Shown one piece after another: positions 1,007-64,000 of a stretch of 64,000 bases of DNA. Both the position numbers and the translations under genes were made by a program. The DNA lies in assembly GCA_958445065.1 (NCBI GenBank), contig CAUCQW010000002.1:1-64000 (forward strand), written 5' to 3'. Below the pieces are notes generated by a model. It made no database searches. It was given only the letters and a program-made list of their open reading frames with translations, and was not told the origin of the DNA. The number at the start of each line of letters is the position of its first letter. The first letter of the stretch is position 1. Origin of the DNA: an uncultured Collinsella sp. (GTDB taxonomy: Bacteria; Actinomycetota; Coriobacteriia; Coriobacteriales; Coriobacteriaceae).

Positions 1007-1047
1007 GTGTCGGAATAGCACGACAGATCGGAGGACCCTTGGGTCTG

Positions 1048-1269
1048 ATGTACGACCTGATGCGCCAGGGGAGATATGACCTCATGCCGGCGCTTTTGTC
1101 GTCGCGTGAGGCGGCGGACGCGGTCGGCGTCACCCCCAGGACCATCGAGAGGATGTGCGCGGCGGGAAAGCTCGAGGGCGCCCGTTTCGGTAACCGCTGG
1201 CGCGTCAACCGTGACTCGCTGCTCAGGTATTCGGGACTCATCGGTCCCGGGAAGGAAGCTAGACGATGA
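1048..1269 (+). CDS. Small helix-turn-helix (excisionase/MerR-like) DNA-binding protein
   Basis: About 73 aa. The core LSSREAADAVGVTPRTIERM followed by AGKLEGARFGNRWRVNRDSL is the classic HTH_17/excisionase-type winged helix: a 'sets reading, then key R/W for DNA wing' arrangement shared by Xis and small MerR-like regulators. The start is uncertain: TTG at 1039 lies 4 nt after GGAGG (1030-1034), ATG 1048 is in frame, and a longer GTG start at 988 would run through the terminator stem. It overlaps the start of the cpaB-like gene by 4 bp (ATGA), so it is the first gene of the tad operon. It could be the operon's own regulator or, given the adjoining conjugative element, an excisionase-like factor; I favour a regulator. 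Confidence 0.65.
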   Translation: MYDLMRQGRYDLMPALLSSREAADAVGVTPRTIERMCAAGKLEGARFGNRWRVNRDSLLRYSGLIGPGKEARR

Positions 1270-3507: not shown

Positions 3508-4406
3508 GCGGGCAGATTTCCCCGGCAGCCCTCCTCCCCGCACTGCCGGCGGTATTGATGGGAATCGTTCTGTTCCTGATGGCCAGAAAGCTACGTGTCG
3601 AGCGCGAGCGCGCCGAGACCGGCCCCATCCCGGAGAACCCAACCGAAGATGCCGGCGGGAACCGACTCGTCGGCACACTCCGTCGCGTGTGCCAGGGAGC
3701 TGCTCCCCAGCTATCGGTCTCCGAGGCCGCGCAGCTTTGGGCCGTTATCGCCTTCGCCCCGTCCGTGCTTATCCTCGCCACCGGTTCGGCGGTGGGAGCG
3801 CTGGCCGCACTCCCGCTCGGTATCGCCGCCTTCCCGATTTGGGTGAGGCTGAAGCGCGGGGCAGAGCAGGGGCTTTTCGAGGAGCAACTCGGCGAGGCGA
3901 TGCCCCTGATCGCGTCGAACCTGCGCACGGGCGCCTCGGTCGCGCAATCGGTGGCCCCTGTCGCCGAGCATATGGCAGAGCCGCTGAAATCGGAGTTCGC
4001 CGTCCTCGAGCGCGACCTGCGAAACGGACGACCCATCGCCCAGGCACTCGATGATATGGCCAAGAGGACGGGGAGTTCGAACCTGAAGCTCTACTCCACG
4101 GCCGTCTCCGTATCGCAACAGACCGGCGGCTCGCTTTCCGATATCACCGAGCGCGTGGGCGAGGCCATCAGGGCGAAGGTCAAGGCAAAACGCTCGGCAG
4201 AGGCAAAGACGTCCTCGGCGCGATTCGAGGCCAAGCTCGTCGGCTTCGCGCCGGTCGTCATGCTGCTGCTCATGTCTCTGAGCTCAGAGATTCACCGCGA
4301 TTTCTTCATGACGCCCGCGGGGTGGGCGTGCCTTGCCGTCGGCGCGGTTCTCGATATCGTGGGCTTCTTGGTCCTCAAGCAAATCAGCAACATCAGGTAC
4401 GACTAG
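3504..4406 (+). CDS. tadB: TadB, type II secretion system F-like inner-membrane protein
   Basis: A 300-aa protein with an N-terminal transmembrane helix (about residues 6-24), a second hydrophobic pair near 78-118, a cytoplasmic GspF-type helical domain (LGEAMPLIASNLRTGASVAQSV, about 130-240) and two C-terminal transmembrane helices. This is the TadB arrangement: a polytopic platform that couples the TadA motor to pilin polymerisation. It is translationally coupled to tadA by a 4-bp overlap and followed 10 bp later by tadC. Confidence 0.9.
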   Translation: MSGQISPAALLPALPAVLMGIVLFLMARKLRVERERAETGPIPENPTEDAGGNRLVGTLRRVCQGAAPQLSVSEAAQLWAVIAFAPSVLILATGSAVGALAALPLGIAAFPIWVRLKRGAEQGLFEEQLGEAMPLIASNLRTGASVAQSVAPVAEHMAEPLKSEFAVLERDLRNGRPIAQALDDMAKRTGSSNLKLYSTAVSVSQQTGGSLSDITERVGEAIRAKVKAKRSAEAKTSSARFEAKLVGFAPVVMLLLMSLSSEIHRDFFMTPAGWACLAVGAVLDIVGFLVLKQISNIRYD

Positions 4407-34926: not shown

Positions 34927-35590
34927 TTATGTACTGTGATTATAGTTTCAACAATGGAAATTCATTTCCCATCGGGTTAAATCACGATTTGAAATACTAC
35001 CATGCACAAGCATGTCGCACAACGCACGATCAAGCGATGTTTTTAACACCCGCTATTCCCTGATAATCAAGATGCATCACAATAAATATCACTGGATGAG
35101 AATGGTTCAAGCCATTATCCAAAGGCTGCAAATAGAGTTAGCCATCGGCGAACTGGTGCCATTTCAAAACCATGCCGGATTACGGGGCTGGATCCAGACC
35201 GGCCGCCCATACCCGACATTTCACGGAATTCACAAGCCGTCTACCTGCGGTTTTGATTTTACCGATTGCGGCATGCTCGGGGGTTCCCGGCCTGGCCCCG
35301 TAAACCGGCATGGTTTTGAAATCGTCGGGTGTGCGGGGGGGGCGGTTGGCCCCGATAATGGGCCCGGCGCCGGCGGGACAGCCGTTGGGCGGATGGCGGA
35401 CCGCGCCGCGGATGCGAGAAACGGCGGTCCGCGGGATTCGGGATGTCCCAAGGGCGCCGGAGAGGAGGGCGGCGGCAACGCCGCCGCCCGCGTCCGCGGC
35501 CCGTCCCGCATCCTCGCCCCCGCCGCAGAAAGTTTTTCCGAAATTGTCCTTGCATCGCCGCCCGAGTTCCCGTATAGTACCTCTTCGCAC
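34927..35590. other. Intergenic region between two tRNA genes; no gene seen
   Basis: 664 bp with no supported coding sequence. The left half is AT-richer. The right half is very GC-rich, with a G8 run (35335-35342) and a perfect 10-bp stem with an AAC loop (35467-35489). It also holds a 16-bp sequence repeated at 53079. The promoter of tRNA-Ala lies at the right end. Confidence 0.5.
35550..35578 (+). promoter_or_regulatory. Promoter of tRNA-Ala
   Basis: TTGCAT (35550-35555), 17-bp spacer, TATAGT (35573-35578), 12 bp before the tRNA 5' end. Good sigma-70-type promoter. Confidence 0.75.
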
Positions 35591-35663
35591 GGGGGCGTAG
35601 CTCAGCTGGGAGAGCGCTTGACTGGCAGTCAAGAGGTCAGGGGTTCGATCCCCCTCGTCTCCA
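35591..35663 (+). tRNA. tRNA-Ala (GGC)
   Basis: 73 nt. Acceptor GGGGGCG/CGTCTCC with two G-U pairs, D-arm GCTCAGCTGGGAGAGC, anticodon arm CTTGA-CTGGCAG-TCAAG giving GGC, T-arm GGGGTTCGATCCCC. CCA is not encoded. Strong promoter upstream and terminator 17 bp downstream. Confidence 0.95.
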
Positions 35664-35679
35664 CCCGAGCATTGAATGA

Positions 35680-35707
35680 GGCTCCAACGCAAGTTGGGGC
35701 CTTTTTT
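35680..35707 (+). terminator. Terminator of tRNA-Ala
   Basis: GGCTCCAAC (35680-35688), GCAA loop, GTTGGGGCC (35693-35701), followed by six T. Confidence 0.9.
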
Positions 35708-35738
35708 CATATAGGCAAACAAGGTCAAAGGCGGCACC

Positions 35739-37772
35739 ATGATCCTCCTGGTCGACAAGATCGAAAAAAGCTTCGGCGCGCGCGTCCTCTTTAGCGGCGC
35801 GTCCTTCCAGATCAACCCCGGCGAGCGCTTCGCGCTCGTGGGACCCAACGGCGCCGGCAAAACCACCATGCTCAAGATCATCATGGGCATCGACAGCCCC
35901 GACTCCGGCCAGGTCCAGTACGCCAAGGACTGCCAGGTGGGTTACCTAGAGCAGGAAACCAACCTGGAACACAAGGACACCACCATCCTTGCCGAGGTCA
36001 TGGCCGCCGCCAAGGAAATCCGCCGCATGGGCGAGCGCGCCAACGAGCTGCAGGCCCAGATTACCGAGCTCTCCGAGCAAGGCAAGGACGTCGACGCACT
36101 CCTCAACGAGTACGGCCAGGTCCAGGATCGCTTTGAGCACCTGGGCGGCTACGAGCTCGAGAGCAACGCCCGCAAAATCCTGTCCGGCCTGGGCTTTAAG
36201 GTCACCGACTTTGAGCGCCCGTGCTCCGAGTTCTCGGGCGGCTGGCAGATGCGCATCGCGCTCGCCAAGCTCTTCCTGCGCCATCCTGACTTGCTGCTTC
36301 TGGACGAGCCTACCAACCACCTGGATCTCGAAAGCGTCCAGTGGCTTCGCGGCTTTATCGCGAACTACGACGGCGCCGTCCTTATCGTCAGCCACGACCG
36401 CGCCTTCATGGACGCCTGCGTCGACCACGTCGCCGCGCTTGAGAACCGCCGCGTGACCACCTACACCGGCAACTACAGCAGCTACCTTAAGCAGCGCGAG
36501 GACAACCTGGAGCAGATGCGCACCAAGCGTGCTGCCCAGGAGCGCGATATCGCTCACATGCAGGTCTTCGTCGACAAGTTCCGCTACAAGCCCACCAAGG
36601 CAGCCCAGGCCCAGGAGCGCATCCGCAAGATCGAGCAGATCAAAAAGGAGCTCGTCATCCTGCCCGAGGGCCACAAGCACATCGACTTTAAGTTCCCCGA
36701 TCCGCCGCGCTCCGGCGACATGGTTGTGGGCCTGGAGGGCGTGTCTAAGTCCTACGGCAACAAGCACATCTACAGTGATATTGACCTCAAACTCTACCGC
36801 GGCGAGCATGTGGCGCTCGTCGGCCCTAACGGCGCCGGCAAGTCCACCCTCATGAAAATCATCGCCGGCTTGGAGCCGCCCACTACAGGCACCCGTGACC
36901 TGGGCACCAACGTGGGTGTGGCCTACTATGCCCAGCACGCGCTCGAAGGCATGACCGAGTCCAACACCGTCCTGCAAGAAATCGACACCGTCACGCCCAA
37001 GTGGACCGTTCCGCAGCAGCGCAGCCTGCTGGGCGCCTTCCTGTTTAGCGATAACGACGCAATCGAAAAGCAGGTCCGCGTCCTCTCCGGCGGCGAAAAA
37101 GCGCGTCTGGCCCTGGCCAAGATGCTCGTGGCGCCCGAGGCGCTCCTGTGCCTGGACGAGCCCACCAACCACCTGGACATCGACTCGGTGGATATGCTCG
37201 AGAACGCCCTGCAAAACTTCCCCGGCACCATCGTGCTTATCAGCCACGACGAGCACCTAGTGCGCGCCGTTGCCAACCGCGTCATCGACATCCGCGACGG
37301 CAAGGTCACGGTCTACGACGGCGACTACGACTACTACCTCTACAAGCGCGAGGACCTCGCAGCCCGCGCCGCCGCCGAGGCGGCAGGGGAGAGCGCGCCT
37401 GTCGCGGCCAAGTCCACTAAAGCCAGCGCCGCCCAGGCCGACACCCCCGCCGCGGCGCCTAAGCCTGCCGAGGGCAAAAAGACCAAGGAGCAAAAGCGCG
37501 CCGAGGCCCAGGCCCGCGCCGCGCTCAACAAAAAGCTCAAGGGCGTGCGCAACCAGCTCAAGAAAATCGAGACAGAGCTGGACAAAAAGCGTGCCCGCTA
37601 TGACGAGCTTATGGAATTGATGGCAAGCGAAGAGCTTTATGCCGATCAGGACAAGTTCAACGCCGCGCTGGGGGAATATAACGGCCTTAAGCAAGAGCTG
37701 CCCAAGCTCGAGGACGAATGGCTGGAGCTTTCCACCCAGATCGAAGAGGAGACCGCGCGTGAACTCTCGTAA
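35739..37772 (+). CDS. ABC-F family ATPase (Uup/YkpA type)
   Basis: A 677-aa soluble protein with two ABC domains and no membrane segments. Walker A motifs GPNGAGKTT (about residues 35-43) and GPNGAGKST (about 362-370); signatures FSGGWQMR (about 165) and LSGGEKAR (about 449); Walker [13 protein letters not shown] and [13 protein letters not shown] linker of ~80 residues separates the domains. After an Ala/Lys-rich low-complexity stretch, a C-terminal coiled coil ([20 protein letters not shown]) resembles Uup/YdiF. Such proteins act on ribosomes in translation quality control; some give antibiotic resistance, but nothing marks this one as a resistance determinant. Confidence 0.93.
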
Positions 37773-51596: not shown

Positions 51597-52814
51597 ATGA
51601 TGACGGCGGCATCCAACAATTCAATGCAACTTGAGGGAAAAACGATCCTGCTGGGCATTACCGGCGGGATCGCCGCCTATAAGTCGTGCAATATCGTGCG
51701 CCTGCTGCAAAAGCGCGGCGCGCGCGTCAAGGTCGTTATGAGCGAGCATGCCACCGAGTTTGTGGGACCACTTACCTTCCGTGCGCTCACCAACGAGCCC
51801 GTTGCCGTGGGCCTATTCGACGATCCCTCAGACCCCATCCACCACATTTCGCTAGCGCAGGAGCCCGATCTTGTGATCGTGGCGCCCGCGACGGCAAATA
51901 TCATCGCCAAGATGGCCAACGGAATCGCCGATGACCTCATCTCCACCACGCTGCTTGCCACGTCGCGACCCATCGTGATCGCACCCGCTATGAACAACGG
52001 CATGTGGAAGGCGCCGGCGACGCAGGCCAATATGGCCACATTGCGCGACCGTGGCGTCCATGTGGTGGGACCAGGCAGCGGCTACCTTGCCTGCGGCGAC
52101 GTTGACACGGGGCGCATGAGCGAGCCCGAGGACATCGTCGAGGCCGTCTGCGAGGTGCTGAACCCCGTCCCGCAAGACCTGGCAGGCAAGCGCATTGTGA
52201 TAACCGCCGGCCCCACGCACGAGCCGATCGACCCCGTGCGCTTTATCGGCAACCGATCGTCGGGCAAGATGGGCATCGCCCTGGCGGGGGAGGCCGCTCG
52301 CCGCGGTGCTGCGGTTACGCTTGTGCTGGGGCCGACATCGCTCGATGTTCCCCGCGGCGTGGAGTGCGTGCGCGTGCAGACCGCCGCAGAGATGCTGCAG
52401 GCGGCGCTGGGCGCCTTCCAGACGGCCGATGCGGCCATTTGCGCGGCTGCCGTCGCCGACTACACCCCCGCAGCCCCTGCCGACCATAAACTCAAAAAGG
52501 CCAACGAACGATTGGACCACATCGAACTGGTCGAGACGGTCGATATCCTGGCCGAACTTTCGCGCCAAAAGGGAGAGCGATGCGTGATCGGCTTTGCGGC
52601 AGAGACTGATAACGTCGTGGAGTACGCGCAGCGAAAGCTCATCCGCAAGGGTTGCGATGCCATTATCGCCAACGATGTCTCGCGTGCCGATTCGGGTTTT
52701 GGAACCGATACCAACAAGGCCTGGATCGTGAGCACAGCGGGTACGCAAGAACTTCCCGTACTAACAAAACCCCAGCTCGCAGATACAATTTTGGACTTGC
52801 TTCAAAATTTGTAA
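51597..52814 (+). CDS. coaBC: Bifunctional phosphopantothenoylcysteine decarboxylase/synthetase
   Basis: A 405-aa enzyme of coenzyme A synthesis. The N-terminal CoaC half has the flavoprotein motifs LGITGGIAAYKSCNIVRLLQ, the catalytic His in DPIHHISLAQEPDL and PAMNNGMWKAPATQ. The C-terminal CoaB half begins near residue 195 with RIVITAGPTHEPIDPVRFIG, NRSSGKMGIALAGEAARRGA and later IGFAAETDN. Start ATG 51597 directly follows the previous stop; the second codon is also ATG. Last gene of the housekeeping block. Confidence 0.97.
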   Translation: MMTAASNNSMQLEGKTILLGITGGIAAYKSCNIVRLLQKRGARVKVVMSEHATEFVGPLTFRALTNEPVAVGLFDDPSDPIHHISLAQEPDLVIVAPATANIIAKMANGIADDLISTTLLATSRPIVIAPAMNNGMWKAPATQANMATLRDRGVHVVGPGSGYLACGDVDTGRMSEPEDIVEAVCEVLNPVPQDLAGKRIVITAGPTHEPIDPVRFIGNRSSGKMGIALAGEAARRGAAVTLVLGPTSLDVPRGVECVRVQTAAEMLQAALGAFQTADAAICAAAVADYTPAAPADHKLKKANERLDHIELVETVDILAELSRQKGERCVIGFAAETDNVVEYAQRKLIRKGCDAIIANDVSRADSGFGTDTNKAWIVSTAGTQELPVLTKPQLADTILDLLQNL

Positions 52815-53491: not shown

Positions 53492-54360
53492 TCATTCCGC
53501 CTTATAGTTCGTCAGCAGTACCTCGACCACGGGCCTATGCTTACCGTTGACGATATAGGCATGGTCGGCGTAGGAGACGTGGCAATCCGACCAAAGCGAG
53601 CCGATGAGCTCATTGCTCCGGTAGTCGTTGTGCGACCACGAGGAAACCATGAACCTGCACCCGCTTTCCATGAGCGAATCGTGCAGCCCCTTTTCCTTCT
53701 CCTCGTCCCAGGTGTCGAAATAGGTGCTCGTGAGTCCGATATAGGGCGGATCGCAGTAAATGAGGGATTTGCTAGGAGCGGCATCTATGGCGTCCCCGTA
53801 GTCCATGGTCAGAAACTCCCAATCATTCTCGGCGATCTTTGCTTGGACTTGCTCGACCTGGTTCACGATCTTCGTGACGTACGCCTTGGAGAAACGGTTG
53901 TCGTTGTGCCCATAGGGGACGTTGTAGCGGTGCTGGCGGTTAAACCTCATGAGGCCGTTGAAGCATGACCGGTTGAGGAAGAGAAAATCGTAAGGGTCAT
54001 GCGATTCGTTGAACCGGTCGCGGACCTCATAGTAGTAATCCCCCCCCTCGATTTCAGGCGTGCGCCTTCGGATTCAAGGAACTTCCTACAGCCGGCGGCG
54101 GTGAGCTGTCCGTCCTGGATGGACCGATAGAAGTCGATGATATGGACGTTCGTGTCCGAGAACAGTGCCCGCCTCGGGGCGAGGTTGAAGCCGACGACGC
54201 CCGAGCCCATGAGCGGCTCGACCCAGACCGTCCAGGCAGCGGATGGGGCGCACCGCGCGATCCACGGGACGAGCTTCGTCTTGATGCCCTGTGTCTTGAT
54301 GGGCGGGACGTGGACCTTCTCGGCGCCCTTCATGTTTTCTGCACCTGCGGACTGAGCCAT
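53492..54360 (-). CDS. Dam-type adenine-specific DNA methyltransferase, out of frame at a G8 tract (phase-variable candidate)
   Basis: Two overlapping frames together make a ~289-aa Dam-family enzyme. The first frame (54360 -> G tract) carries motif I, EPLMGSGVVGFNLAP, and ends in nonsense sequence after the tract. The second frame continues with GDYYYEVRDRFNESHDPYDF, FLFLNRSCFNGLMRFNRQ and motif IV CDPPYIG. The frames meet at a G8 tract (plus-strand C run 54040-54047). With nine G the reading becomes continuous; with eight, translation stops early. Dam-like enzymes methylate adenine in short palindromes such as GATC. The gene diverges from pilin gene 1, with a TGCCGC-T-GCGGCA palindrome between them. 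Either a phase-variable methylase in the OFF state, a recent pseudogene, or a homopolymer sequencing error. Confidence 0.85.
54040..54047 (-). repeat. Homopolymer G8 tract in the methyltransferase gene
   Basis: Eight G on the coding (minus) strand. Frame arithmetic: 9 (or 6) G joins the two halves of the gene; 8 gives a premature end. Mononucleotide tracts of this length inside coding sequence are classic sites of slipped-strand mispairing. Confidence 0.8.
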
Positions 54361-54518: not shown

Positions 54519-55469
54519 ATGCATGCAGCGGCAAATAACCTTCGGGGGGGGGTATCTCCTAGAAATACCCGCCTCCGAGGACAGTCAATCATCGAGTACG
54601 TCCTGATCATCGCCGTCATCTCGCTCGTCGTCGTCTTCGCCGGCCCCGCCGTCGCAGGTGCCATCCGCAATCAGTTCAACCTGGTGGGCAACACGGTGAA
54701 CAGCGGGACGACAGGCGGCACCGAGGGAGGCGGCGCGTCCGGCGGGGCCGATTCCGCGACCGTCCAGGCGGCCATCGCCAAGGACGCGAAGGACTGGACG
54801 CTGGATGAGCAGGAGGCAGTCGCCAAAGACATCGCCGCCAAGGGAGAGGCCTCGCCTGCGTATTCCAAGGCCAAGGCGGTCATGGACGCAGGCACGATAT
54901 TCTCTACCAAGCTGACGAACGGTCAGACGCTCGCGTACCGTATAGTTGGCATCAACCACGATGACCTTGCGGACGGCTCCGGCAAGGCCGGTTTGACGTT
55001 CGAGGCGACAAACGATGCTATGGGCAGACAGCGTATGAACGCCGAGTTTACCAACGCCGGCGGATGGGAGAAGTCGGAGCTCCGCGGCCGCCTCAGCTCC
55101 GGCGACCTCTGGGCGCTTTTGCCCTCCGAGCTCCAGTCCAAGGTGAAGTCCGTCACGAAGATGACCGATAACAAGGGCGGCGGCAGCGCCGGCACCCCCT
55201 CGGCCACGACCGACAAGGTCTTCCTGCTCTCGACGGCGGAAATCTATGGTGACCTCCAGTCCGATGGCAGCCAGTACGAGTACTACAAATCCAAGCGCGT
55301 GTCGACGTCGAACCATTACGAGGCTTCATCGTCGAGCAAGTATCACTGGACTCGTTCTGTTGACCCGAACAAATCCACGAGCTTCTATTATGTCCTCGAT
55401 AGCGGCACCTTGATCAGCTACTACGGCTCGGCGAACGCCTTCCACTTGTTTCCCGCTTTCTGCTTCTAG
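54519..55469 (+). CDS. Type IVb (Flp/Tad) prepilin with C-terminal DUF6273-like domain, copy 1 (in frame, ON)
   Basis: 316 aa from ATG 54519 (GAAGGGAG 8 nt upstream; GTG 54510 is less likely because the other copies start at the equivalent ATG). Class III leader RLRG|QSIIEY with cleavage after Gly21, Glu+5 and Tyr+6, then a hydrophobic helix (VLIIAVISLVVVFAGPAVAG), as in Flp pilins. A Gly/Ser linker leads to a helical segment (KDWTLDEQEAVAKDIAAKG) and a ~170-aa DUF6273-like domain: YRIVGINHDDLADGSGKAGL, GGWEKSELRGRL, DKVFLLSTAEIYG, ending PAFCF. Flp pilins are normally ~50-80 aa, so this is a giant, probably adhesive, pilin. A G9 tract at codons 9-12 is in frame here. The partner Tad machine may be that at 1-5.3 kb. 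Confidence 0.88.
   Translation: MHAAANNLRGGVSPRNTRLRGQSIIEYVLIIAVISLVVVFAGPAVAGAIRNQFNLVGNTVNSGTTGGTEGGGASGGADSATVQAAIAKDAKDWTLDEQEAVAKDIAAKGEASPAYSKAKAVMDAGTIFSTKLTNGQTLAYRIVGINHDDLADGSGKAGLTFEATNDAMGRQRMNAEFTNAGGWEKSELRGRLSSGDLWALLPSELQSKVKSVTKMTDNKGGGSAGTPSATTDKVFLLSTAEIYGDLQSDGSQYEYYKSKRVSTSNHYEASSSSKYHWTRSVDPNKSTSFYYVLDSGTLISYYGSANAFHLFPAFCF
54544..54552 (+). repeat. Homopolymer G9 tract in pilin gene 1 (in frame)
   Basis: Nine G immediately after codon CTT-C, at residues 9-12 before the prepilin cleavage site. Nine keeps the frame; 8 or 10 would truncate the product within a few tens of codons. Confidence 0.85.
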
Positions 55470-55479
55470 CCCGTCTAGT

Positions 55480-55510
55480 GAAAAGCCCGCGTAGCCTGTG
55501 CGGGCTTTTC
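55480..55510 (+). terminator. Terminator of pilin gene 1
   Basis: GAAAAGCCCGC (55480-55490) pairs with GCGGGCTTTTC (55500-55510) around a 9-nt loop, 10 bp after the stop. The sequence between the stop and the stem (GTCTAGTG) is conserved after pilin gene 2. Confidence 0.85.
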
Positions 55511-55529
55511 TATTGGCAAGCCAACATGA

Positions 55530-55544
55530 TTGCCGTAGCGGCAA
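55530..55544. promoter_or_regulatory. Palindrome site B (TTGCCGT-A-GCGGCAA)
   Basis: 15-bp palindrome with one mismatch, 64 bp upstream of the CoiA-like gene. Same core as sites A and C-F. Confidence 0.65.
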
Positions 55545-55608
55545 CGGCCAATCCGAACTATGCGCCTCCTGTACGTTGACTTAAACAAGGTGAGCAGAAA
55601 GGTGTCCT

Positions 55609-56790
55609 ATGGCTTCGAAATGCGCGGGACGGGGCGTGCCGTTCGGATATGACCCACAAACTGATAGGTTTGTATGGTTGAGCTCGGTACCGCTCGACAG
55701 GTACGGAGAGCGCTGCGGGCTCGTCTGCCCGTCCTGTGGCGGCAAACTGCAGGCCGTGCGGCCTGCGACAAATACGCCTCACCCGTACTACAAGTGCTTC
55801 AGGCACTCTTCGCTGTCCTCGTGTGGCGGAGGTTTCGAGTCGCAGCTGCATAGGGCAGTTAAGTCTCTTCTGGCCGACTCGGTCGGCAGGGAGTTCCGCC
55901 TCCCGATGGTCTCCTTGGCGGATGCCGCGCCGCACGCGTCGAGGATGAGCGATTCCGGACGATGGGTTCACGATTGGCGGCAGACTTTCGAACAGGACGA
56001 CCGCTGCGTCTATCCGGAGATCTGGGTGCCGTACTCGGCGAGAAAATGCACCATCGAGGCCGTTGAGCTTGAGACGACTCAGGAAAACGGCCTGCGCCCA
56101 GATGCCGTCCTGACACTGAAAGATAGCCGTGGGGATCTCGGCAGGGTTGCGGTTGAAATTCGCGTGGAGCACCAAAAGTCGCTGGAAGACGCAGTAAAGT
56201 TTAGCGAGATCGGTCTGGACGTTATCGAGATAAATTTTGGCGGTATCGATTTGACCTCGGAGGATTGCGAATCATTGCTCCAGAGGATCGTATTCGGTGA
56301 TCTGTCCCCGAGATGTCAGCGAGATAGGCGCCGCGAATGGCTTTGGACTGCAAGGGCTGTATCGGTGCTGGATAATTACCATCCCTATGTAGACCAATCT
56401 GGTTTTTCTAAAAGTGAAAGGGCTCAGTTTCCATATATCGGCAGACATGCCCACATTGCCGTGGCAAAGGGTATCGGGAAGCAGGATTGGGGCAATCAGC
56501 CTCGCCTGACTTGGGAGGATTTGACTCGTCTATGCGATATCGTAGACGAGATCGATAGGGAGGCGGATTCCGAGATCGAGGGACCGGAGCTCGATTACTT
56601 CGGAACGATTGAAACGGATGCGGAATCGTACGATATGGCTGACGGGCAGGAAGATCAAGCTGTTCAACCAGATGAGAATGCAGCCGATGAATCCGATGGC
56701 TCTAACTCTGATTGGTCGAAAGGGAAAACCGACAAGAAACGATGGTGGCAGCGCAATCCCTTGAGCCGTTTCCTGAGCAGGTTCAAATAG
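55609..56790 (+). CDS. CoiA-like predicted nuclease (competence-type family)
   Basis: A 393-aa soluble protein, ATG 55609 after GAGCAGAAAGG. A zinc-finger-like N-terminus (LVCPSCGGKLQAVRP, then YYKCFRHSSLSSCGGGFESQ with LHRAVK) is followed by a restriction-endonuclease-like core: EAVELETTQENGLRPDAVLT, then GRVAVEIRVEHQKSLEDAVK, where Asp and Glu/x/Arg fit a PD-(D/E)xK site. This order is that of CoiA-family proteins, which in streptococci act in natural transformation. The C-terminal ~130 residues are acidic then basic. It lies directly after pilin gene 1 with its own palindrome. Whether it acts in competence here is inference; a defence role is the alternative. Confidence 0.65.
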   Translation: MASKCAGRGVPFGYDPQTDRFVWLSSVPLDRYGERCGLVCPSCGGKLQAVRPATNTPHPYYKCFRHSSLSSCGGGFESQLHRAVKSLLADSVGREFRLPMVSLADAAPHASRMSDSGRWVHDWRQTFEQDDRCVYPEIWVPYSARKCTIEAVELETTQENGLRPDAVLTLKDSRGDLGRVAVEIRVEHQKSLEDAVKFSEIGLDVIEINFGGIDLTSEDCESLLQRIVFGDLSPRCQRDRRREWLWTARAVSVLDNYHPYVDQSGFSKSERAQFPYIGRHAHIAVAKGIGKQDWGNQPRLTWEDLTRLCDIVDEIDREADSEIEGPELDYFGTIETDAESYDMADGQEDQAVQPDENAADESDGSNSDWSKGKTDKKRWWQRNPLSRFLSRFK

Positions 56791-56974
56791 CCGCCTTGCT
56801 TAAGCGCCATACCGATGACAGCTTGACTGTTAGCTGATATATCCGCCGTTGCATGTACTGACTTCATGTCACTCTAATCGGACTTCCCATAGAGAGGGGA
56901 TGACCCAATGCACGGGTGCCATCTCAACGGCGGAGGGCTCAGGGGGCAACAGGACACTCGGCCTTCGAGAGTAT

Positions 56975-57793
56975 TTATTTCGAGAGGCTCGTTTCGATTT
57001 CCGCGCGGCGGGCGTTGATTCGATTGCACTCCTCGGCATACTCCGTGGCGTATTCCGAAATGTCATAGAGCGATTCGAAATCCTTGTCGAAAAGCCGATC
57101 GCATAATTCAGGATATTTATTCCTTAGCGCTACTTCATTTCCGCAGCTCAACAGTATCGAGGCAAGGGAAGAAGAGTGGATTTCGGTGAGATTTTCGTCT
57201 AAAAATTCAATGACCGAATAGGACATTTCGTCATTCCTGCGCGAGAGGATGATAGCGATAGGCTCAACCGTGCCAACCGACTTTTCTTGGAGTTCGATAT
57301 CGCTCAGGAGTTGAAGGCTTGTCGGGACGAAGGTTACCGGCCCCGATTTCTTTGAACCGATGTGAATCGCGCCAATTGCGAAGCCTGCCTTTGACCCGGA
57401 TATCCAAATCTCAGCGTTAACTTTTGAGCGACGCTTGTTGACTGCACTCACATGTGTTGCGGTGGAACCGAATTCATTTAGGAATTTGGCTGCGATTGTT
57501 TTCATCTTAAACTTAGGCGCGATGCTATAGCCGAGGTCTTGGGGTTTAAGATTGCCTGCAATCGCTCGGGCATACACCTCATGAGGTTTGATTTGGCAAT
57601 TGTGTTTGTCGATGCCCGCGAGATGACTGAAGTTGCCGGCTGAAAATGACACTTCGAGAAAACGAAGTGTCTTTGTACCGAAGCAAATAAGAAAAGATTT
57701 GCCATTCAAATTCTTATCGAACTGCTGGGCTAGTGAAATTATTGCTTCAGCTTCTTCCTTGCCGGCTAGACGCCCATAGCTGTTGCTTCTCAT
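56975..57793 (-). CDS. PBECR4-like (phage barnase-EndoU-ColicinE5/D-RelE-like) domain protein
   Basis: 272 aa, ATG 57793 preceded by AAAAAGGAGG. The region KSFLICFGTKTLRFLEVSFS, AGNFSHLAGIDKH, then later GPVTFVPTSLQLLSDIELQE, MSYSVIEFLDENL resembles the PBECR4 nuclease-like domain found in phage and mobile-element effectors ('NF.HL.G' signature). The composition is AT-richer and lysine-richer than most of the window, which suggests recent transfer. Palindrome site F lies 54 bp upstream. It could be a toxin-type nuclease; no obvious immunity gene is adjacent. Confidence 0.5.
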   Translation of the reverse strand: MRSNSYGRLAGKEEAEAIISLAQQFDKNLNGKSFLICFGTKTLRFLEVSFSAGNFSHLAGIDKHNCQIKPHEVYARAIAGNLKPQDLGYSIAPKFKMKTIAAKFLNEFGSTATHVSAVNKRRSKVNAEIWISGSKAGFAIGAIHIGSKKSGPVTFVPTSLQLLSDIELQEKSVGTVEPIAIILSRRNDEMSYSVIEFLDENLTEIHSSSLASILLSCGNEVALRNKYPELCDRLFDKDFESLYDISEYATEYAEECNRINARRAEIETSLSK

Positions 57794-57847
57794 GGGGTGC
57801 CTCCTTTTTGGGAAAACTACCTCAATCGCTGAAACTGTCGTTATCGG

Positions 57848-57860
57848 TGCCGCGGCGGCA
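57848..57860. promoter_or_regulatory. Palindrome site F (TGCCGC-G-GCGGCA)
   Basis: Perfect 13-bp palindrome, 54 bp upstream of the PBECR4-like gene (minus strand). Core identical to sites A, C, D and E apart from the centre base. Confidence 0.7.
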
Positions 57861-57878
57861 ATATCTACTCTCTAAACA

Positions 57879-57904
57879 AATAAGGGCGCTTTCGCGCCCT
57901 TATT
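57879..57904. terminator. Strong hairpin, possible bidirectional terminator
   Basis: AATAAGGGCGC (57879-57889), TTTC loop, GCGCCCTTATT (57894-57904): an 11-bp perfect stem. It lies upstream of the PBECR4-like gene and just after the remnant ORF at 57971-58162 (minus strand), so it would end transcription coming from that side. Confidence 0.55.
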
Positions 57905-57970
57905 GATTCTCGGTTGCTGCCTGCCAGTCTGCTCTCCTAAACCGAAGTCTAGGCGCGGGGGCTTAGGCCC

Positions 57971-58162
57971 CTAGGCTTGAACGTACTCGAGGTCAAGCTC
58001 TCCAGGCGCGTCCACGTACACCGCGCCGAACGTCAGGTTTACCAGCCGAGCCTGGGTTCCTTTCGGAACACCTTCATTATACCCTGGTAAGTCTAGGTGA
58101 TCAATATCGTTTAGGAGAGATTTCAATCTAGTCTCGATTTCGACGTCTCCCCATCCACTCAG
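57971..58162 (-). pseudogene. Remnant of a minus-strand gene, C-terminal ~63 codons
   Basis: An open stretch ending at TAG (57971-57973) reads KSLLNDIDHLDLPGYNEGVP, then KGTQARLVNLTFGAVYVDAP and GELDLEYVQA, which has natural protein composition. It has no ATG or GTG and a stop at its 5' side, so it is probably the 3' part of a decayed gene. Family unknown. Confidence 0.35.
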
Positions 58163-58322
58163 TCAAACATGTGGGACGCCCCAAAAAGGCGCCCCTCAGT
58201 AAAGCAAGTTGTTTTCATCACTCATATCGCGAACCCACATCGTCCTATTTATCCCTTCCGCTCTTTCCTGCCCTTCTACCTACCCGCTAGCCCTCTACCT
58301 GTGCCGAGCCGCCATATAATCC

Positions 58323-58529
58323 TCACCGCAGCAATGGTTTATCCGTCGCCCAGGTCAACCCGACAAAGACAACCAAAACCAACCATTTCCGCAGTTCTGC
58401 GCTATTACTCCCTTCAACATCCCAATACCGAACCGTCTCCACATCACGTTCAAACTCCCAGTAAAATCTAGCTGCTTGAAAATCGCCTGTCCGCGCGTCT
58501 ATCAGCTTGATTAGACCCCAGTCATTCAC
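58323..58529 (-). pseudogene. Short minus-strand fragment, 68 codons, possibly a remnant
   Basis: Reads GLIKLIDARTGDFQAARFYW, EFERDVETVRYWDVEG, then a hydrophobic segment (WLVLVVFVGLTWA). The composition looks genuine, but the only start is a GTG without a ribosome binding site. Either a small membrane protein or the trace of a larger lost gene. Confidence 0.3.
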
Positions 58530-58994
58530 TCGAACACATCCCCGAACGCGACCCCGCGCTATCTGCCCGCCGCCTCGACACCTACCTCGACAACTGAATA
58601 TCGCCCGACTGGCTATTCTTGACCTATCCGGTTGCCTGCCGCGCGACCCGACGCCTGATCAGCATCGGCAAGCGCCGAGCGCGGAGGACGTGGCCACTAA
58701 GGGCCTGAAAGAGTCCGCAAGTGCTCAAAACTTGGCGAAAGGCGCAAAGGATGACGGGATCCATTTCGGATACCGAGTACCCAGGTGGGGTCGATATAGG
58801 CGGTTTTTGCAGACTACGTCTCCTGCCAGCGATTACCCCCGAGAGGGAAAGGATCTCATAGGGTTCCGTAATTCAATGCGACCGATTGCCGCCCGGACAA
58901 GGGACCGGACTTCATGGCCACATGCCGCGAATCCATAAACGCAAATTACCCATACCACGGATTCGCGGCAAGGCCTCCATGGGATAGGAGCCAC

Positions 58995-60884
58995 ATGTCC
59001 GCGAGCGGTTTGAAATTAAGAGACTACCAAGCGGAATGTATCGACATAATCGACAACCTAGACGGCGGCGCCCATCTGGTGCAGATGGCAACCGGCTTGG
59101 GCAAGACCGTCACGTTCGCGAACATTCACAGACACGGCCGAATGCTGATTCTGTCCCATAGGGACGAGCTGGTGGCGCAGCCGGTCAAGTATTTCGATTG
59201 CCCCGTGGGAATCGAGAAAGCCGAAAGGCATTCGGATGGCGAGCCAGTCGTCTCCGGTTCGGTACAGACCCTATCGCGCGGCACCCGCCTTGAGCGGAAC
59301 TTCAAGCCTGGCGATTTCGACCTCATCGTGACTGACGAGGCGCACCACGCCTCAGCACACACCTATCGCAAGATAATCGACTATCTGCAACCCCGCCTTC
59401 ACATCGGTTTCACGGCGACGCCGAACCGAGGCGACGGTAGGGGATTGGACGATATCTTCGAGGATATCGTCTTCCAGCGCGACCTCCTCTGGGGTATCCG
59501 CCGTGGGTACCTCTGCGATATCGACTGCATGCAGGTCGAGGTCGAATGGTCCACCGCTGGCGTGAAGCGCGTCGCGGGAGACTTCCAGCTGAACGCCCTA
59601 AACGACGCCGTAAATCGCCCGAAATCGAACGCGCAGGTCGCCGAGGCATACCGCCGATTCCATCGCGGCCAGACTCTCATCTTCGCCTCGTCGGTCAAAC
59701 ATGCCTACGCGTTGGCCGAACTCATCGAGGGCGCGGTGGTCGTCGACGGCAAGACCCCGATGGACGAGCGCCGCCAGATTATCGAGGATTTCACCGCCCG
59801 AAAGATCCCCGTCATCATCAATTTCGGCGTATTCACCGAAGGCACCGACATGCCCCTCATCGAGACAATTCTATTGGCCCGACCGACGCGAAACTCAACC
59901 CTCTACACGCAGATGGTCGGGCGCGGCCTGCGTCTCTACGAGGACCCCGAAACGGGCTACAAGAAGCAGAACCTGCTGCTGATAGACTGCGTTGGCGATT
60001 CCGACAAGAACGATATCTGCACGGCTCCGAGCCTGATCGGCATCGACTCGAGTGACCTCGATAAGAACGAGAAAAAGGCCGTCCGTGGCCCCCTGTCGGG
60101 CATGTGCGACCGTATCGAGGCATCCGAGGACACTCCCGAGGGCTGGGTCCTTTCCGTCCGCAAGGTCGACCTCACATCATCGAGCCAGAATATCGCTTGG
60201 ATTCGCCGCGCAGACGGCTCGAAGGTCATCCGAGGCAAGGGCTGGTCGGTCCGTATGCACGCGCCCGATATCCTCTACCGCGTCACGGTCGATTTCAACG
60301 GCAACAACAAGACCGTCCGTGAATATGACGATGAGGCCGAAGCTGAGGCCGCAGTTCGCCGCTGGTTAGACCGCTATCCCGTACCCTCACAAGACAGATC
60401 ACTATGGGACACTGAATCTGTCAAGAAATGGGGCAACAAGCCCGCCTCCAGCGCCCAGATTGGGCAAATTAGGCGGATGCTCGGCGATGATGCCGAGGCG
60501 ATCGATGTCGAGCATCTGACGAAGCGTGAGGCGGCGGCGGTGCTGGACAACGCATTCGAGAAACAGGAAAAGGCGTTCGCCGATATCTATGGCCTGTGCC
60601 CCAAATGCGGTCAAGCTCTAAAGCTCACCAAGAATAAGAAATCCTTCACCTGCACGTCAAACCACTGGTCGCAAGACGGCACATGGACGCTGATTTCGGG
60701 GTGCGGGACGACCTTCAAGGTGAGAGCCGACGGCCATTGCATAAAGCCCGCCGACCTCAAGGCCATTCGCGAGAGCGGCTTCTACGTATGGCGCGGGAAG
60801 AGGTTCGCCTTCGAACCCGCCAGAAACCCTGGTGACTTCAGCGCTATCAGATGCATCGGCGATGCCGACGATGCCTCCTGTTAG
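58995..60884 (+). CDS. SF2 (SSL2/DEAD-DEAH type) helicase with C-terminal zinc finger
   Basis: 629 aa from ATG 58995, with ATAGGAG 5 nt upstream; an extension to 58914 has no such site. Motif Q-like LRDYQAECIDII, Walker A MATGLGKTVTF near residue 31-41, DEAH in VTDEAHHASAHTYR near 114, GFTATPNRGDG near 140 and motif VI QMVGRGLRLYED. The C-terminal part has a helical domain (VEHLTKREAAAVLDNAFEKQ) and a zinc finger starting CPKCGQ near 535, with further Cys in FTCTSNHW and SGCG. Helicases of this group are common in prophages and defence islands. It has no palindrome of the A-F type upstream, so it may be outside the pilin regulon. Confidence 0.85.
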   Translation: MSASGLKLRDYQAECIDIIDNLDGGAHLVQMATGLGKTVTFANIHRHGRMLILSHRDELVAQPVKYFDCPVGIEKAERHSDGEPVVSGSVQTLSRGTRLERNFKPGDFDLIVTDEAHHASAHTYRKIIDYLQPRLHIGFTATPNRGDGRGLDDIFEDIVFQRDLLWGIRRGYLCDIDCMQVEVEWSTAGVKRVAGDFQLNALNDAVNRPKSNAQVAEAYRRFHRGQTLIFASSVKHAYALAELIEGAVVVDGKTPMDERRQIIEDFTARKIPVIINFGVFTEGTDMPLIETILLARPTRNSTLYTQMVGRGLRLYEDPETGYKKQNLLLIDCVGDSDKNDICTAPSLIGIDSSDLDKNEKKAVRGPLSGMCDRIEASEDTPEGWVLSVRKVDLTSSSQNIAWIRRADGSKVIRGKGWSVRMHAPDILYRVTVDFNGNNKTVREYDDEAEAEAAVRRWLDRYPVPSQDRSLWDTESVKKWGNKPASSAQIGQIRRMLGDDAEAIDVEHLTKREAAAVLDNAFEKQEKAFADIYGLCPKCGQALKLTKNKKSFTCTSNHWSQDGTWTLISGCGTTFKVRADGHCIKPADLKAIRESGFYVWRGKRFAFEPARNPGDFSAIRCIGDADDASC

Positions 60885-60983
60885 ATATTCGTCCCTACAT
60901 TCCACAACCCAAACACGTCCAGTCCTAACGGCCGGACATTGCCTCATTCCCAGTCAATCGGGGTGATTTTCAATAGCATCATC

Positions 60984-61007
60984 TGACTGATTGAGGTCTT
61001 TAGTCAT
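60984..61007 (+). promoter_or_regulatory. Conserved upstream element of pilin gene 2
   Basis: TGACTGATT...TAGTCAT with TGACT/AGTCA inverted arms, 29 bp before palindrome C. A very similar element (63029-63048) lies upstream of pilin gene 3. Possible second binding site or relic of shared ancestry. Confidence 0.35.
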
Positions 61008-61035
61008 TTTCAAATTCAGATCACAACCGCCACCC

Positions 61036-61050
61036 TTGCCGCTGCGGCAA
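61036..61050. promoter_or_regulatory. Palindrome site C (TTGCCGC-T-GCGGCAA)
   Basis: Perfect 15-bp palindrome, 73 bp before the ATG of pilin gene 2. The left arm TTGCCG could act as a -35, with ATAAAA (61058-61063) 16 bp downstream as -10. Confidence 0.75.
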
Positions 61051-61123
61051 GACCGCCATAAAAATCCGCGCCGACCCCTAAGCTCGAAATGTTTCTATCA
61101 ACCCTGAGCGAAGGGAGCCGCAC

Positions 61124-62217
61124 ATGAACGCAGCGGCAATTTCGCCTCGGGGGGGGGCGCTCCTAAGACGACCCGCCTCAGAGGCCAATCCATCATCGAG
61201 TACGTCCTGATTATCGCCGTCATCGGCCTTGTGATCGTATTCGCGGGACCTGGTGTGGCCGGGGCCATCCGCAACCAGTTCAACCTGGTCGGCGACATCC
61301 TAGACAGCGGGACGAGCGGAGGCACCGAGGGCGGCGGAGCATCCGGTGGCGGCTCCGCTGGGGCCGATTCCGCGACCGTCCAGGCGGCTGTGGCCAAGGA
61401 TGCCAAGGACTGGACGCTCGACGAGCAGAAGGCCGTGGCCGAGGATATCGCCGCCAAGGGCGAGGCCTCGCCCGCCTACGCCAAAGCGAAGGCTGCGATG
61501 GATGCCGGAACCGAATTCTCGATGAAATTGACGAACAGCGATATTCTTAAGTACCGCATCATCGGCATCAACCACGACGATTTGGCCGACGGCTCGGGCA
61601 AGGCGGGCCTGACGTTTCTCACCACCTCACCGACCATCTCATCCTACATGTGCTACAAGGGTTCGAAATCTAACGCCGGCGGCTGGGAGTTCTCGGATCT
61701 CCGCGCGATGCTGAACGGCGAGCCGTTCTGGAACCTGATGCCGACCGAGTTCCAGTCAAAAGTCAAGAGAGTAAAGAAGTTGACGAACAACGCCGGCAGC
61801 GGTGAGGAGATCTTAGGCGATGAGGAGAACAAAAATATCCCCGCGACGGCTACCTTGGACAAGCTGTTTCTGCTCAGCTATTCCGAAATCGTCCCAGCTG
61901 CCCACGGAGAAGGGGAAATCATCCCAAACCTCCCCGGAACCCCCACCGGTGGCCCCACCCACAATTGGGCCTACAAGTACCCGTGGACTTCCTCCGAGGG
62001 CACCCAGTACGAGGCCTTCCAAGGCAAGGTGACGGAGAGGTATTCGAACAACGCTTGTCTGCAGCTTGACAGCGAAGGTTTCCGTTGGGAGTGGTGGGAG
62101 CGTACGGTGAATCCTGGCTCCTCTACGGGCTTCCTCAATGTCGATGCCAACGGCAATCCGTCGGACAGCTGCGACCAGAAGATCTCGCTTTACGTCTGCC
62201 CCGCTTGGTGCTTCTAG
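61124..62217 (+). CDS. Type IVb prepilin with DUF6273-like domain, copy 2 (out of frame at G9, OFF)
   Basis: From ATG 61124 (GAAGGGAG 6 nt upstream) the frame runs into a G9 tract and stops after ~29 codons. With one extra G (10) it joins the large frame and gives a ~364-aa protein starting MNAAAISPRGGGAPKTTRLR and continuing GQSIIEYVLIIAVIGLVIVF, the same class III leader as copy 1. The body matches copy 1 (KDWTLDEQKAVAEDIAAKG, GINHDDLADGSGKAGLTF), but the C-terminal domain is longer and strongly diverged, ending CPAWCF. Upstream region, start and 3' flank are conserved with copy 1. Read as a phase-variable pilin in the OFF state, unless the tract length is a sequencing error. Confidence 0.85.
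61149..61157 (+). repeat. Homopolymer G9 tract in pilin gene 2 (out of frame)
   Basis: Nine G at the same position as in pilin gene 1. Here 10 (or 7) would be needed for the full-length frame. Confidence 0.85.
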
Positions 62218-62230
62218 TCTGTCTAGTGTA

Positions 62231-62262
62231 AGGCCCGCGCGATCCTGCGCGGGCCTTTCTTT
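62231..62262 (+). terminator. Terminator of pilin gene 2
   Basis: AGGCCCGCGC (62231-62240), GATCCT loop, GCGCGGGCCT (62247-62256), then TTCTTTT. Confidence 0.88.
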
Positions 62263-62283
62263 TGGTAATGAAGCTCTGGTTGA

Positions 62284-62296
62284 TGCCGCAGCGGCA
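62284..62296. promoter_or_regulatory. Palindrome site D (TGCCGC-A-GCGGCA)
   Basis: Perfect 13-bp palindrome, 71 bp before the ATG of the second DUF192 gene and after the terminator of pilin gene 2, so it serves a separate transcription unit. Confidence 0.7.
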
Positions 62297-62367
62297 AGTC
62301 AGCCTCACTAGACCCCATGACCCCTATCTTCAAACCATCAAAGACTTTGGCTTGAAAGGACACCTTC

Positions 62368-62871
62368 ATGGCAGATAGCGAGGCTCGCCTGTTCGACGCA
62401 ACCGGAAACAACATCGGCTCGTACAAACTCGAGGTGATGGACACCTTCTGGAAGCGTTTCATGGGATTGATGGGACGTCCTGAGATGCCAATCGGCGATG
62501 CCGCATTGTTCCGCAACTGCTCTTCAATCCACATGTTCTTTATGAAGATTCCCCTCGATGTCATTTGGTACGGAGCGCCACTTTCCAATGGCCGAATGCC
62601 CGTCCTTGCGGTATCGAGGGACGTAAAGCCCTGGCAATTGTCTTTCGGCCCGAAGCACTCGCAGGGATGCCTCGAGGTTGCCGCCGGCACCGTCCCCGCC
62701 AATCTCGATGCGATCGAGATCTTGACCGTATCTCCCAACCGACCGAACGCAACCGTTATCCGACCCGACTACCGCGACGTCGTCCGAGACCGTATCCAAG
62801 TGACCAGATGCGCCGATACCCAAACCCACTTGGGCGGAGCCGCCTCACTCCTACATGGTCATGTCTGCTAG
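62368..62871 (+). CDS. DUF192-family protein (pilin-linked)
   Basis: 167 aa, ATG 62368 after GAAAGGA. The DUF192 core is clear: FWKRFMGLMGRPEMPIGDAA, SSIHMFFMKIPLDVIWYG, VSRDVKPWQLSFGPKHSQG and LEVAAGTVPANLDAIEI. A C-terminal extension of ~45 residues has no recognised domain. It has no signal peptide. It lies between pilin genes 2 and 3 with its own palindrome and is the second DUF192 gene tied to pilus genes in this window (see 5297-5674), which points to a cytoplasmic role in pilin handling or regulation. Confidence 0.88.
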   Translation: MADSEARLFDATGNNIGSYKLEVMDTFWKRFMGLMGRPEMPIGDAALFRNCSSIHMFFMKIPLDVIWYGAPLSNGRMPVLAVSRDVKPWQLSFGPKHSQGCLEVAAGTVPANLDAIEILTVSPNRPNATVIRPDYRDVVRDRIQVTRCADTQTHLGGAASLLHGHVC

Positions 62872-63028
62872 CCAATTCCTCCACGCCACACTACCTGATG
62901 AGCCCATGGCTTTCAGTATCGCGGGGACGCTCGACCTCCATAGGTTGAGTTTCCATGGGGTAAGGAATACATGCCCACAAGGCCGCACATCCCATTCGAC
63001 CCGAATGATTCCCAAGATTTCCCCTCAT

Positions 63029-63048
63029 TGACTGATTCCTGTAGTCAT
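63029..63048 (+). promoter_or_regulatory. Conserved upstream element of pilin gene 3
   Basis: TGACTGATT...TAGTCAT, counterpart of 60984-61007 upstream of pilin gene 2, but about 100 bp further from its palindrome. Confidence 0.35.
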
Positions 63049-63177
63049 CTACCTCAATCAAAACGCGGCAAATCATCCAGTCCTCACAGCCGATCATCAT
63101 CTTGATCCCAATCAACCAGAGCGATTCCCAATATCTCCCTCCCTGCCAGATTTCTTTAGCCATCATCCCTCCCCAAA

Positions 63178-63192
63178 TTGCCGCAGCGGCAA
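63178..63192. promoter_or_regulatory. Palindrome site E (TTGCCGC-A-GCGGCAA)
   Basis: Perfect 15-bp palindrome, 60 bp before the ATG of pilin gene 3. Confidence 0.75.
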
Positions 63193-63252
63193 GACCGCCG
63201 CCACTCCTACCCTTGGCTCGTATCTACCAACCCTGAGCGAAGGGAGCCGCAT

Positions 63253-64000
63253 ATGCATGCAGCGGCATTTTTGCCACGGGAAGGGGTATCTCCTAGGAGT
63301 GCCCGACTTCGAGGCCAATCTATCATCGAGTACGTCCTGATTATCGCCCTCATCGGTCTGGTAATCGTGTTTGCAGGCCCGGGTGTAGCCGGCGCCATCC
63401 GCAACCAGTTCAACCAGGTTACGAACACGGTCGATTCCGGCACAGACGGCGGCAATTTCATGAGCGCCGAGGAGAAGGCATACCAAGAGGCGATGAAGAC
63501 CGTCGTGAATAAGGACGCGAAGGACTGGACGCTCGATGAGCAGAAGGCCGCCGCTACCGACATCGCCAAGAACGGCACGTCCTCCGCTGTCTACGCCAAG
63601 GCCGAAGCCGCGATGGATGCCGGTACCAAGTTCTCCACCAAACTGACGAACGGCAAGACGCTCGAGTACCGCATCGTCGGCATCAACCATGACGATCTCG
63701 CCGATGGTTCCGGCAAGGCGGGCCTGACGTTCGAGGCGACTAATTCTGCACTGGGTTACCAGAAAATGAACGCTACGAATACCAACGCCGGTGGCTGGGA
63801 GAAGTCGGAACTCCGAGGCCGTCTCAACACAGGTGACCTCTGGTCGCTCCTGCCTAGCGAACTTCAGTCCAAGGTGAAGGCCGTCACGAAGATGACCGAT
63901 AACCAGGGTGACGGCAAGGCCGGTACTCCCACCACCACGACTGACAAGGTCTTCCTGCTCTCGGCGACCGAGGTCTGGGGCGATATGCAGTCCGACGGCA
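63253..64000 (+). CDS. Type IVb prepilin with DUF6273-like domain, copy 3 (in frame; cut by window end)
   Basis: From ATG 63253 (GAAGGGAG 6 nt upstream) the frame is open to the window edge (249 codons). Leader: MHAAAFLPREGVSPRSARLR then G|QSIIEYVLIIALIGLVIVF. The body has KDWTLDEQKAAATDIAKNG, YRIVGINHDDLADGSGKAGL, GGWEKSELRGRLNTGDLWS and DKVFLLSATEVWGDM, closer to copy 1 than to copy 2 in the DUF6273-like part. At the position of the G9 tract the sequence is CGGGAAGGGG, so the tract is broken by two A and the frame is correct: this copy looks locked ON. More cassettes may follow beyond the window. Confidence 0.88.
   Translation, partial: MHAAAFLPREGVSPRSARLRGQSIIEYVLIIALIGLVIVFAGPGVAGAIRNQFNQVTNTVDSGTDGGNFMSAEEKAYQEAMKTVVNKDAKDWTLDEQKAAATDIAKNGTSSAVYAKAEAAMDAGTKFSTKLTNGKTLEYRIVGINHDDLADGSGKAGLTFEATNSALGYQKMNATNTNAGGWEKSELRGRLNTGDLWSLLPSELQSKVKAVTKMTDNQGDGKAGTPTTTTDKVFLLSATEVWGDMQSDG

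Follow-up and report, generated by a model that had tools for sequence, protein, structure and literature searches.

Flp-type pilins with DUF6273 heads in a Collinsella: slippery G tracts and a predicted diversity-generating retroelement

The window analyzed here, a stretch of 64,000 nucleotides that is Collinsella aerofaciens-like as judged by its sequence, carries toward its 3′ end three paralogous genes (copies 1 to 3) joining the leader and helix of an Flp-type pilin to a DUF6273 head. We propose, with a probability of about 0.7, that such headed Tad pilins are under three layers of control, namely, promoters marked by a palindrome, a switch made of a G tract and two overlapping ATG codons, and hypermutation of the head by a diversity-generating retroelement (DGR). 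The best match of the window is L001, from C. aerofaciens D31t1_170403_C12 (96% identity), whose genome (G001, contigs C18 and C2) is collinear with the window from ~53.5 kb to its end (96.4%, 92.2%, and 91.5% identity over 3885, 4274, and 1729 bp, respectively).

Pilin heads and their probable adenine-directed diversity

The preliminary description of this DNA had reported three paralogous genes with an Flp-type leader and helix and DUF6273 heads. These genes are real, and the frames, tracts, and coordinates given for them were correct (Table 1). DUF6273 (PF19789) was recognized in copies 1, 2, and 3 with E values of 1.4e-14, 9.7e-13, and 5.2e-9, respectively. The sequence has the features of class III pilins, since the leader ends in G and the mature protein begins with a hydrophobic helix of the QS-I-I-E5-Y6 pattern. 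Matches of the helix to Flp_Fap (23.2 and 25.2 bits for copies 1 and 3) were below the Pfam cut-off of 32.2 bits, and for the family profile there was a weak match (E = 0.0082) to PilA, a pilin of known structure (8u1k). Structure prediction, which the preliminary description had proposed, gave a weak model for copy 1 and a good one for a 78% identical relative (P0025). The head, with its C-type lectin fold, presumably serves binding. The claim that the last third differs between copies can bear only on copies 1 and 2 in the window, since copy 3 runs off its end and has its last third outside.

In the window, no match to a reverse transcriptase (RT) or to an accessory gene and no separate template repeat (TR) were found, and the window stops in copy 3 before the variable region of that gene. 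In G001, the ortholog of copy 3 (240 of 249 residues identical) is followed by a hairpin, an open reading frame (ORF) of 165 residues, a TR located 615 bp past the stop codon, and an RT frame starting 44 bp after the TR. The TR and its target, the variable region (VR) at the C-terminal end of the C-type lectin domain, differ at 21 bases, 20 of which are template adenines (20/38 adenines versus 1/88 other bases; Fisher test, p = 7e-12). G001 combines a TR/VR pair differing almost only at adenines with an adjacent DGR-type RT, as is found in DGRs. The RT frame comprises 481 residues, but its true start may be further in, since 412 residues is the annotated length of many close relatives. Profile matches were obtained with phrog_1423 (8.5e-51), the PADLOC RT (1.2e-11), RVT_1 (0.0067), and TIGR04416 (4.5e-8, far under the cut-off). 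A single PDB sequence was matched (8ub7; E = 2.6e-10), which we take to be the DGR enzyme of phage BPP-1. All 73 close members of the RT family carry the motif LGNQ[VI]NQ together with YMDD, and LGxxxSQ was present in 44 of the 48 distant relatives listed. The 165-residue ORF, a candidate Avd-type accessory gene by its position, gave no useful family match. Copy 3 of the window is of this DGR-target type, and collinearity predicts that its variable region begins within ~0.1 kb of the window end, with the TR ~0.8 kb and the RT 1.0 to 2.4 kb past that end. The head of copy 1 differs from the G001 TR at positions not confined to adenines, indicating that this head is archived or not templated by that TR. 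A second RT family (L131 to L139), 30 to 33% identical to the DGR RT, was observed in 7 of 43 genomes of the genus; GLGSEPNQ and YMDD were read in 5 of these 7, and this family is possibly another DGR.

Database homologs of the pilins provided a broader view of head diversity. Among the 120 homologs listed (of 2516 at E ≤ 1e-5), the head motif was present in 112, and 93 aligned to the TR without gaps; the other 27 were dropped from the codon count. In these 93 sequences, template codons devoid of A kept the template residue in 91 to 100% of the cases, with one TGG exception (67%), whereas the 14 AAY codons kept it in only 3 to 27%, and 1293 of the 1302 residues at AAY sites could be encoded by NNY. 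Eight of the 120 homologs had the interrupted tract of copy 3 (REGV type). Five of them passed a filter of at most 5 backbone differences and enough aligned columns, giving 10 pairs of database proteins that differed at 0 to 2 backbone positions and at 13 to 18 head positions. All head differences (152/152) were located at A-containing codons. When the columns of the five REGV pilins were counted, variation affected 20 of the 24 A codons and 0 of the 18 others (p = 2e-8). Of the close pairs of the other type (n = 94), 84 showed 0 or 1 head difference, and the remaining 10 showed 18 to 26 differences that included A-free codons. The mark of recent DGR-type changes thus sits on the REGV copy, and the non-REGV copies look, from these alignments, frozen or recombined. 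Head diversity among near-identical backbones bears only indirectly on retrohoming, which is presumed. Among the 25 distinct pilin starts compared below, none but those of the window and G001 showed the interrupted tract.

G tracts, overlapping start codons, and a shared palindrome

To the 5′ side, 25 distinct start regions from the window and fetched loci were compared, masked or motif-less regions being excluded and some of the regions being mutually orthologous. The preliminary description had placed a run of nine G residues (G9) right after the start codon of copies 1 and 2; both copies do carry G9, but the tract begins 25 nt past the ATG. Copies 1 and 3 start with ATGCATG, the second ATG (at 54523 and 63257, respectively) being in the adjacent frame, whereas copy 2 starts with ATGAACG and has no second ATG. 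Both ATGs (ATG1 and ATG2) were present in 22 of the 25 starts. The pilin was in frame with ATG1 in 9 starts, with ATG2 in 12, and with neither in 4. All eight G10 starts were in frame with ATG2, while the G9 starts were in frame with ATG1 (six), ATG2 (one), or neither (three). The four starts in neither frame were those of copy 2 in the window, of the ATTCCTTTC-type genes of L003 and L046 with G9, and of L089 with G11. Pilin starts consisting of GGAAATTCCTTTC and a G run (L003:2514, L046:1552, and L089 in genome G002) were seen in three versions (G9, G9, and G11), with both ATGs out of frame; the L003 pilin of this type has the helix GQSTVEY. Of the 120 listed homologs, 100 begin as read from ATG1, 17 as read from ATG2, and 3 otherwise, a ratio biased by the ranking of the list by similarity to an ATG1 query.

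The proposal that these tracts are slippery found support in strain comparison. Over 1300 bp, one pilin gene shows 99.4% identity between L003 and L013, with G10 versus G9 as the sole gap. The assemblies each give a single tract length. Tract length thus differs between close relatives and shifts the frame, as is known for slippage loci. The proposal that a shifted copy is OFF holds for copy 2, in which the second ATG is absent; as a general rule it is too simple, since most copies hold two overlapping ATGs and 12 of the 25 starts are in the ATG2 frame. The leaders read from ATG1 and ATG2 share their terminal G, and an identical mature pilin is therefore expected from either codon. Sequence comparison therefore leads us to infer that slippage often moves the start site, probably changing the level rather than the product, and does not only turn genes OFF. 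The G9 runs are not unusual alone: for G/C runs of at least 9, of which the window contains 2, an expectation of 0.62 and a maximum of 3 were obtained from 100 first-order Markov simulations of the window. Their recurrence at pilin starts is beyond chance, as these starts hold 16 of the 21 G runs of at least 8 in 388 kb from 25 fetched loci, a partly redundant set selected for containing these genes or their element.

G runs were also observed elsewhere. Two paralogous genes encoding 793 and 789 residues (L104:13529-15910 and the gene following it; G001:C2 31029-33410 and 33573-35942) are preceded at 86 bp by an exact palindrome and carry G9 soon after the start. The first carries a SpaA-like domain, and slippage may extend to this second surface family. 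The D12-class adenine DNA methyltransferase gene preceding copy 1 is in two pieces meeting at a run of 8 G in the window and 11 in G001, lengths that give the same frame; the run was also noted at L088:3399. If it is phase-variable, this methyltransferase next to the pilins could act as a phasevarion switch. A predicted protein, P0019, fuses an antisense reading of the methyltransferase to the copy-1 pilin and probably arose by deletion at a short shared stretch. A further G8 run (35335-35342) lies within an ORF (35012-35794) that gave no Pfam match.

The palindrome TTGCCGCNGCGGCAA, with at most 2 mismatches, was found 75 to 91 bp upstream of 23 of the 25 pilin starts and not once in shuffled upstream sequence. 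Exact palindromes (W at the center) occur in 9 of the 43 genus genomes, with 10 sites in G001 and none for the reversed control, and 8 of these 9 genomes are among the 12 that have the pilin start, the exception being G027. Since the count over the whole window, allowing 3 mismatches, is only mildly above chance (15 versus 7.3), the evidence lies in the clustering of the palindrome upstream of genes. Other genes of the island also carry it (Table 1), and a copy with 1 mismatch precedes the Tad genes of G001. On sequence grounds, we read the palindrome as a putative operator.

Table 1. Features of the pilin region of the window (positions within the 64,000 nucleotides)
Feature	Position	Strand	Remark
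Gene taken to be coaBC	51597..52814	+	Chromosomal neighbor of the pilin genes; name taken from the sequence
D12-class adenine DNA methyltransferase, two pieces	53492..54360	-	Pieces meet at G8 (54040-54047, read as C8 on the + strand)
Palindrome, 2 mismatches to TTGCCGCNGCGGCAA	54428..54442		91 bp before copy 1 and ~82 bp before the divergent methyltransferase gene
Copy 1, Flp-type pilin with DUF6273/C-type lectin head	54519..55469	+	In frame; open from ATG 54519
Overlapping starts of copy 1	54519..54525	+	ATG1 54519-54521; ATG2 54523-54525 (next frame)
G9 tract, copy 1	54544..54552	+	Keeps ATG1 in frame
Variable-region equivalent of copy 1	55329..55454	+	71% to the G001 TR
Inverted repeat, terminator-like hairpin	55481..55510	+	Past the copy-1 stop codon; read by eye
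Palindrome and gene	55530..56790	+	Palindrome 55530-55544 (1 mismatch); gene 55609-56790, without family assignment
PBECR4-like gene and palindrome	56975..57861	-	Gene 56975-57793; palindrome 57847-57861 (1 mismatch) upstream
Palindrome, exact	61036..61050		Copy 2 start 88 bp downstream
Copy 2, architecture of copy 1	61124..62217	+	Out of frame with ATG 61124; pilin frame used from 61162
G9 tract, copy 2	61149..61157	+	ATG1 out of the pilin frame
Palindrome and DUF192 gene	62283..62871	+	Palindrome 62283-62297 (1 mismatch), 85 bp upstream, spacing as at the pilins; gene 62368-62871
Palindrome, exact	63178..63192		Copy 3 start 75 bp downstream
Copy 3, interrupted-tract (REGV) pilin	63253..64000	+	Truncated by the window end; residue 249 last visible
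Interrupted tract GGGAAGGGG, copy 3	63278..63286	+	Longest G run 4

Genomic setting, proposed mechanism, and alternatives

The T2SSE ATPase was found in all 43 genus genomes. The G001 contig bearing the pilins and the DGR also encodes a prepilin peptidase, an ATPase, a TadB-like protein, and two short Flp pilins with a helix almost identical to that of copy 1, together with TadE/G-like proteins recognized by eye only. The headed pilins would enter the same filament as the short Flp pilins, perhaps at the tip, in the way proposed for Tad tips (PMC12075869). At 276-4406 and ~8-34 kb, the window has a separate Tad-like locus beside a conjugative-element-like region with a type IV secretion system coupling protein; within 1266-4406, RcpC, an ATPase, and T2SSF were identified, and this ATPase is 53% identical to that of G001 contig C2. 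The pilin start pattern was detected in 13 of the 43 genomes, one of which (G039) is apparently a chance match, leaving 12; the reversed control pattern gave none. A close RT was present in only one genus genome, G001 itself, and 72 of the 120 listed clusters were close RTs (at least 66% identity). At the order level, 162 of 395 genomes matched the alignment at 1e-20, mostly through the DUF6273 part, and all matches below 1e-60 belonged to the genus set. The G001 contig contains genes of the mobile-element type (SSB, ParA-like, relaxase-like, and ArdC-like), and these genes together with the patchy presence suggest that the island is mobile. Many of the pilin loci listed have, next to the pilin, the gene that we take to be coaBC.

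In the mechanism that we propose, promoters marked by the palindrome, including one before the Tad operon of G001, would switch the genes together. Tract length would place ATG1, ATG2, or neither in frame, resulting in two possible expression states and an OFF state. Copying of the TR by the RT would be inaccurate at adenines, and this copy would take the place of the end of the head gene, varying ~20 residues. The target of the DGR would be one interrupted-tract copy, in frame where seen, and the G-tract copies would be slowly changing stored heads. Our confidence in this proposal is slightly tempered by the five REGV pilins being database proteins seen outside a genomic context and by the tests covering part of the Tad operon. 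We hold a fuller form of it tentatively, at slightly less than even odds, namely, a mobile island combining a palindrome regulon that has its own Tad pilus, an always-in-frame lectin pilin diversified by the DGR, and a G-tract archive of earlier heads; hypermutation would try new binding heads, and slippage would pick among stored ones.

In the preliminary description, the conserved flanks were seen as also permitting exchange of head cassettes. Some genomes do have several paralogs whose flanks are conserved, P0019 is a fusion of a pilin with an antisense methyltransferase reading, and recombination would account for those non-REGV pairs, 10 among the 94 close ones (each involving P0062, or being P0066/P0093), whose heads differ at A-free codons as well. 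The adenine-templated pattern of the copy-3-type genes, with TR, RT, and target together in collinear G001, the confinement of all 152 REGV head differences to A-containing codons, and the NNY-compatible residues at AAY sites nevertheless argue that the diversity of the REGV copy does not chiefly stem from exchange between paralogs or cassettes, and we consider recombination an improbable explanation of head diversity.

The overlapping ATGs could instead act as a buffer, G9 and G10 both yielding protein and expression being robust to slippage. In agreement with a buffer, 21 of the 25 starts are in frame with one ATG, versus two thirds expected by chance, an excess that is at most suggestive given that the starts are not independent, and tracts of 9 or 10 are found in 18 of the 25. 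Four starts are, however, in frame with neither ATG, and the G runs of the methyltransferase and of the two genes of the SpaA-like family, near or in the element, are as expected of switching loci; we consider the buffer rather unlikely. It is less likely still that copies 1 and 2 are decaying remnants of an old DGR target, with incidental G runs, and that only the REGV copy matters. The out-of-frame state of copy 2 and its missing ATG2, the ATTCCTTTC-type starts all seen out of frame, and the partial pilin matches of several loci fit decay. Many copies, however, retain the tract, the dual ATG, a Shine-Dalgarno-like site, and the palindrome, and tract length changes in a gene otherwise 99.4% identical, which speaks against decay.

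Comparison with known systems

Two known kinds of systems, the DGR-diversified adhesin and the slippage locus, would be joined here in a new setting. If this is true, Collinsella, a common human gut genus, would have a fast-changing sticky surface, and hypermutation of Tad pilus heads combined with slippage would be a new route for a commensal to alter its adhesion and antigenic face. The template adenines, the tract lengths, and the two start codons offer exact sites for testing. A role as the binding head of bacterial pili is also supported for DUF6273, a widespread domain that has no assigned function and was already described as resembling C-type lectins in phages.

The DGR of Bordetella phage BPP-1 is organized as Mtd, avd, TR, and brt. 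G001 shares with it the order of target, accessory gene (a candidate in G001), TR, and RT, the adenine-specific changes from TR to VR, the C-type lectin target, and the hairpin after the VR. Unlike in BPP-1, the Collinsella target is a bacterial pilin, the RT motif is LGNQVNQ, the candidate accessory gene is not recognizably Avd, and no phage genes were seen beside the DGR in the stretch read. Neisseria pilC and the Haemophilus lic genes vary in phase through poly-G or multi-start mechanisms, with a tract near the start, ATGs in different frames, and graded expression. Like them, the Collinsella pilins have a slippery tract close to the beginning of an adhesin gene or other surface gene, along with ATGs in different frames; the overlapping ATGCATG and the poly-G in the class III prepilin leader of a Gram-positive bacterium set them apart. 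The primary paper on DGR-diversified type V tip pilins of Bacteroides is that of Macadangdang et al.

According to the review PMC12632263, Bacteroides type V tip pilins are diversified by DGRs and, as in Collinsella, the product is a diversified pilus adhesin of a gut commensal. Type V pili are built from lipoproteins, whereas in Collinsella the pilin is of the Tad/Flp type IV class and comes together with slippery tracts and a set of paralogs. In Faecalibacterium phages and other gut phages, DUF6273, described as C-type-lectin-like, serves as a DGR target (PMC11792537 and PMC10743442), and PMC11792537 places the variable region at its C terminus. Those targets are phage proteins, whereas in Collinsella DUF6273 sits on an Flp-type pilin. 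Exchangeable Kil/TadEFG tips show that Tad pili can be specialized by minor pilins with variable C-terminal domains, as described in part of PMC12075869; these tips are pilin-like complexes with other domains, and DGRs or phase variation are not mentioned in that part. In keeping with the preliminary description, no Tad pilus with the present combination was found among the matches listed in the open-licence literature.

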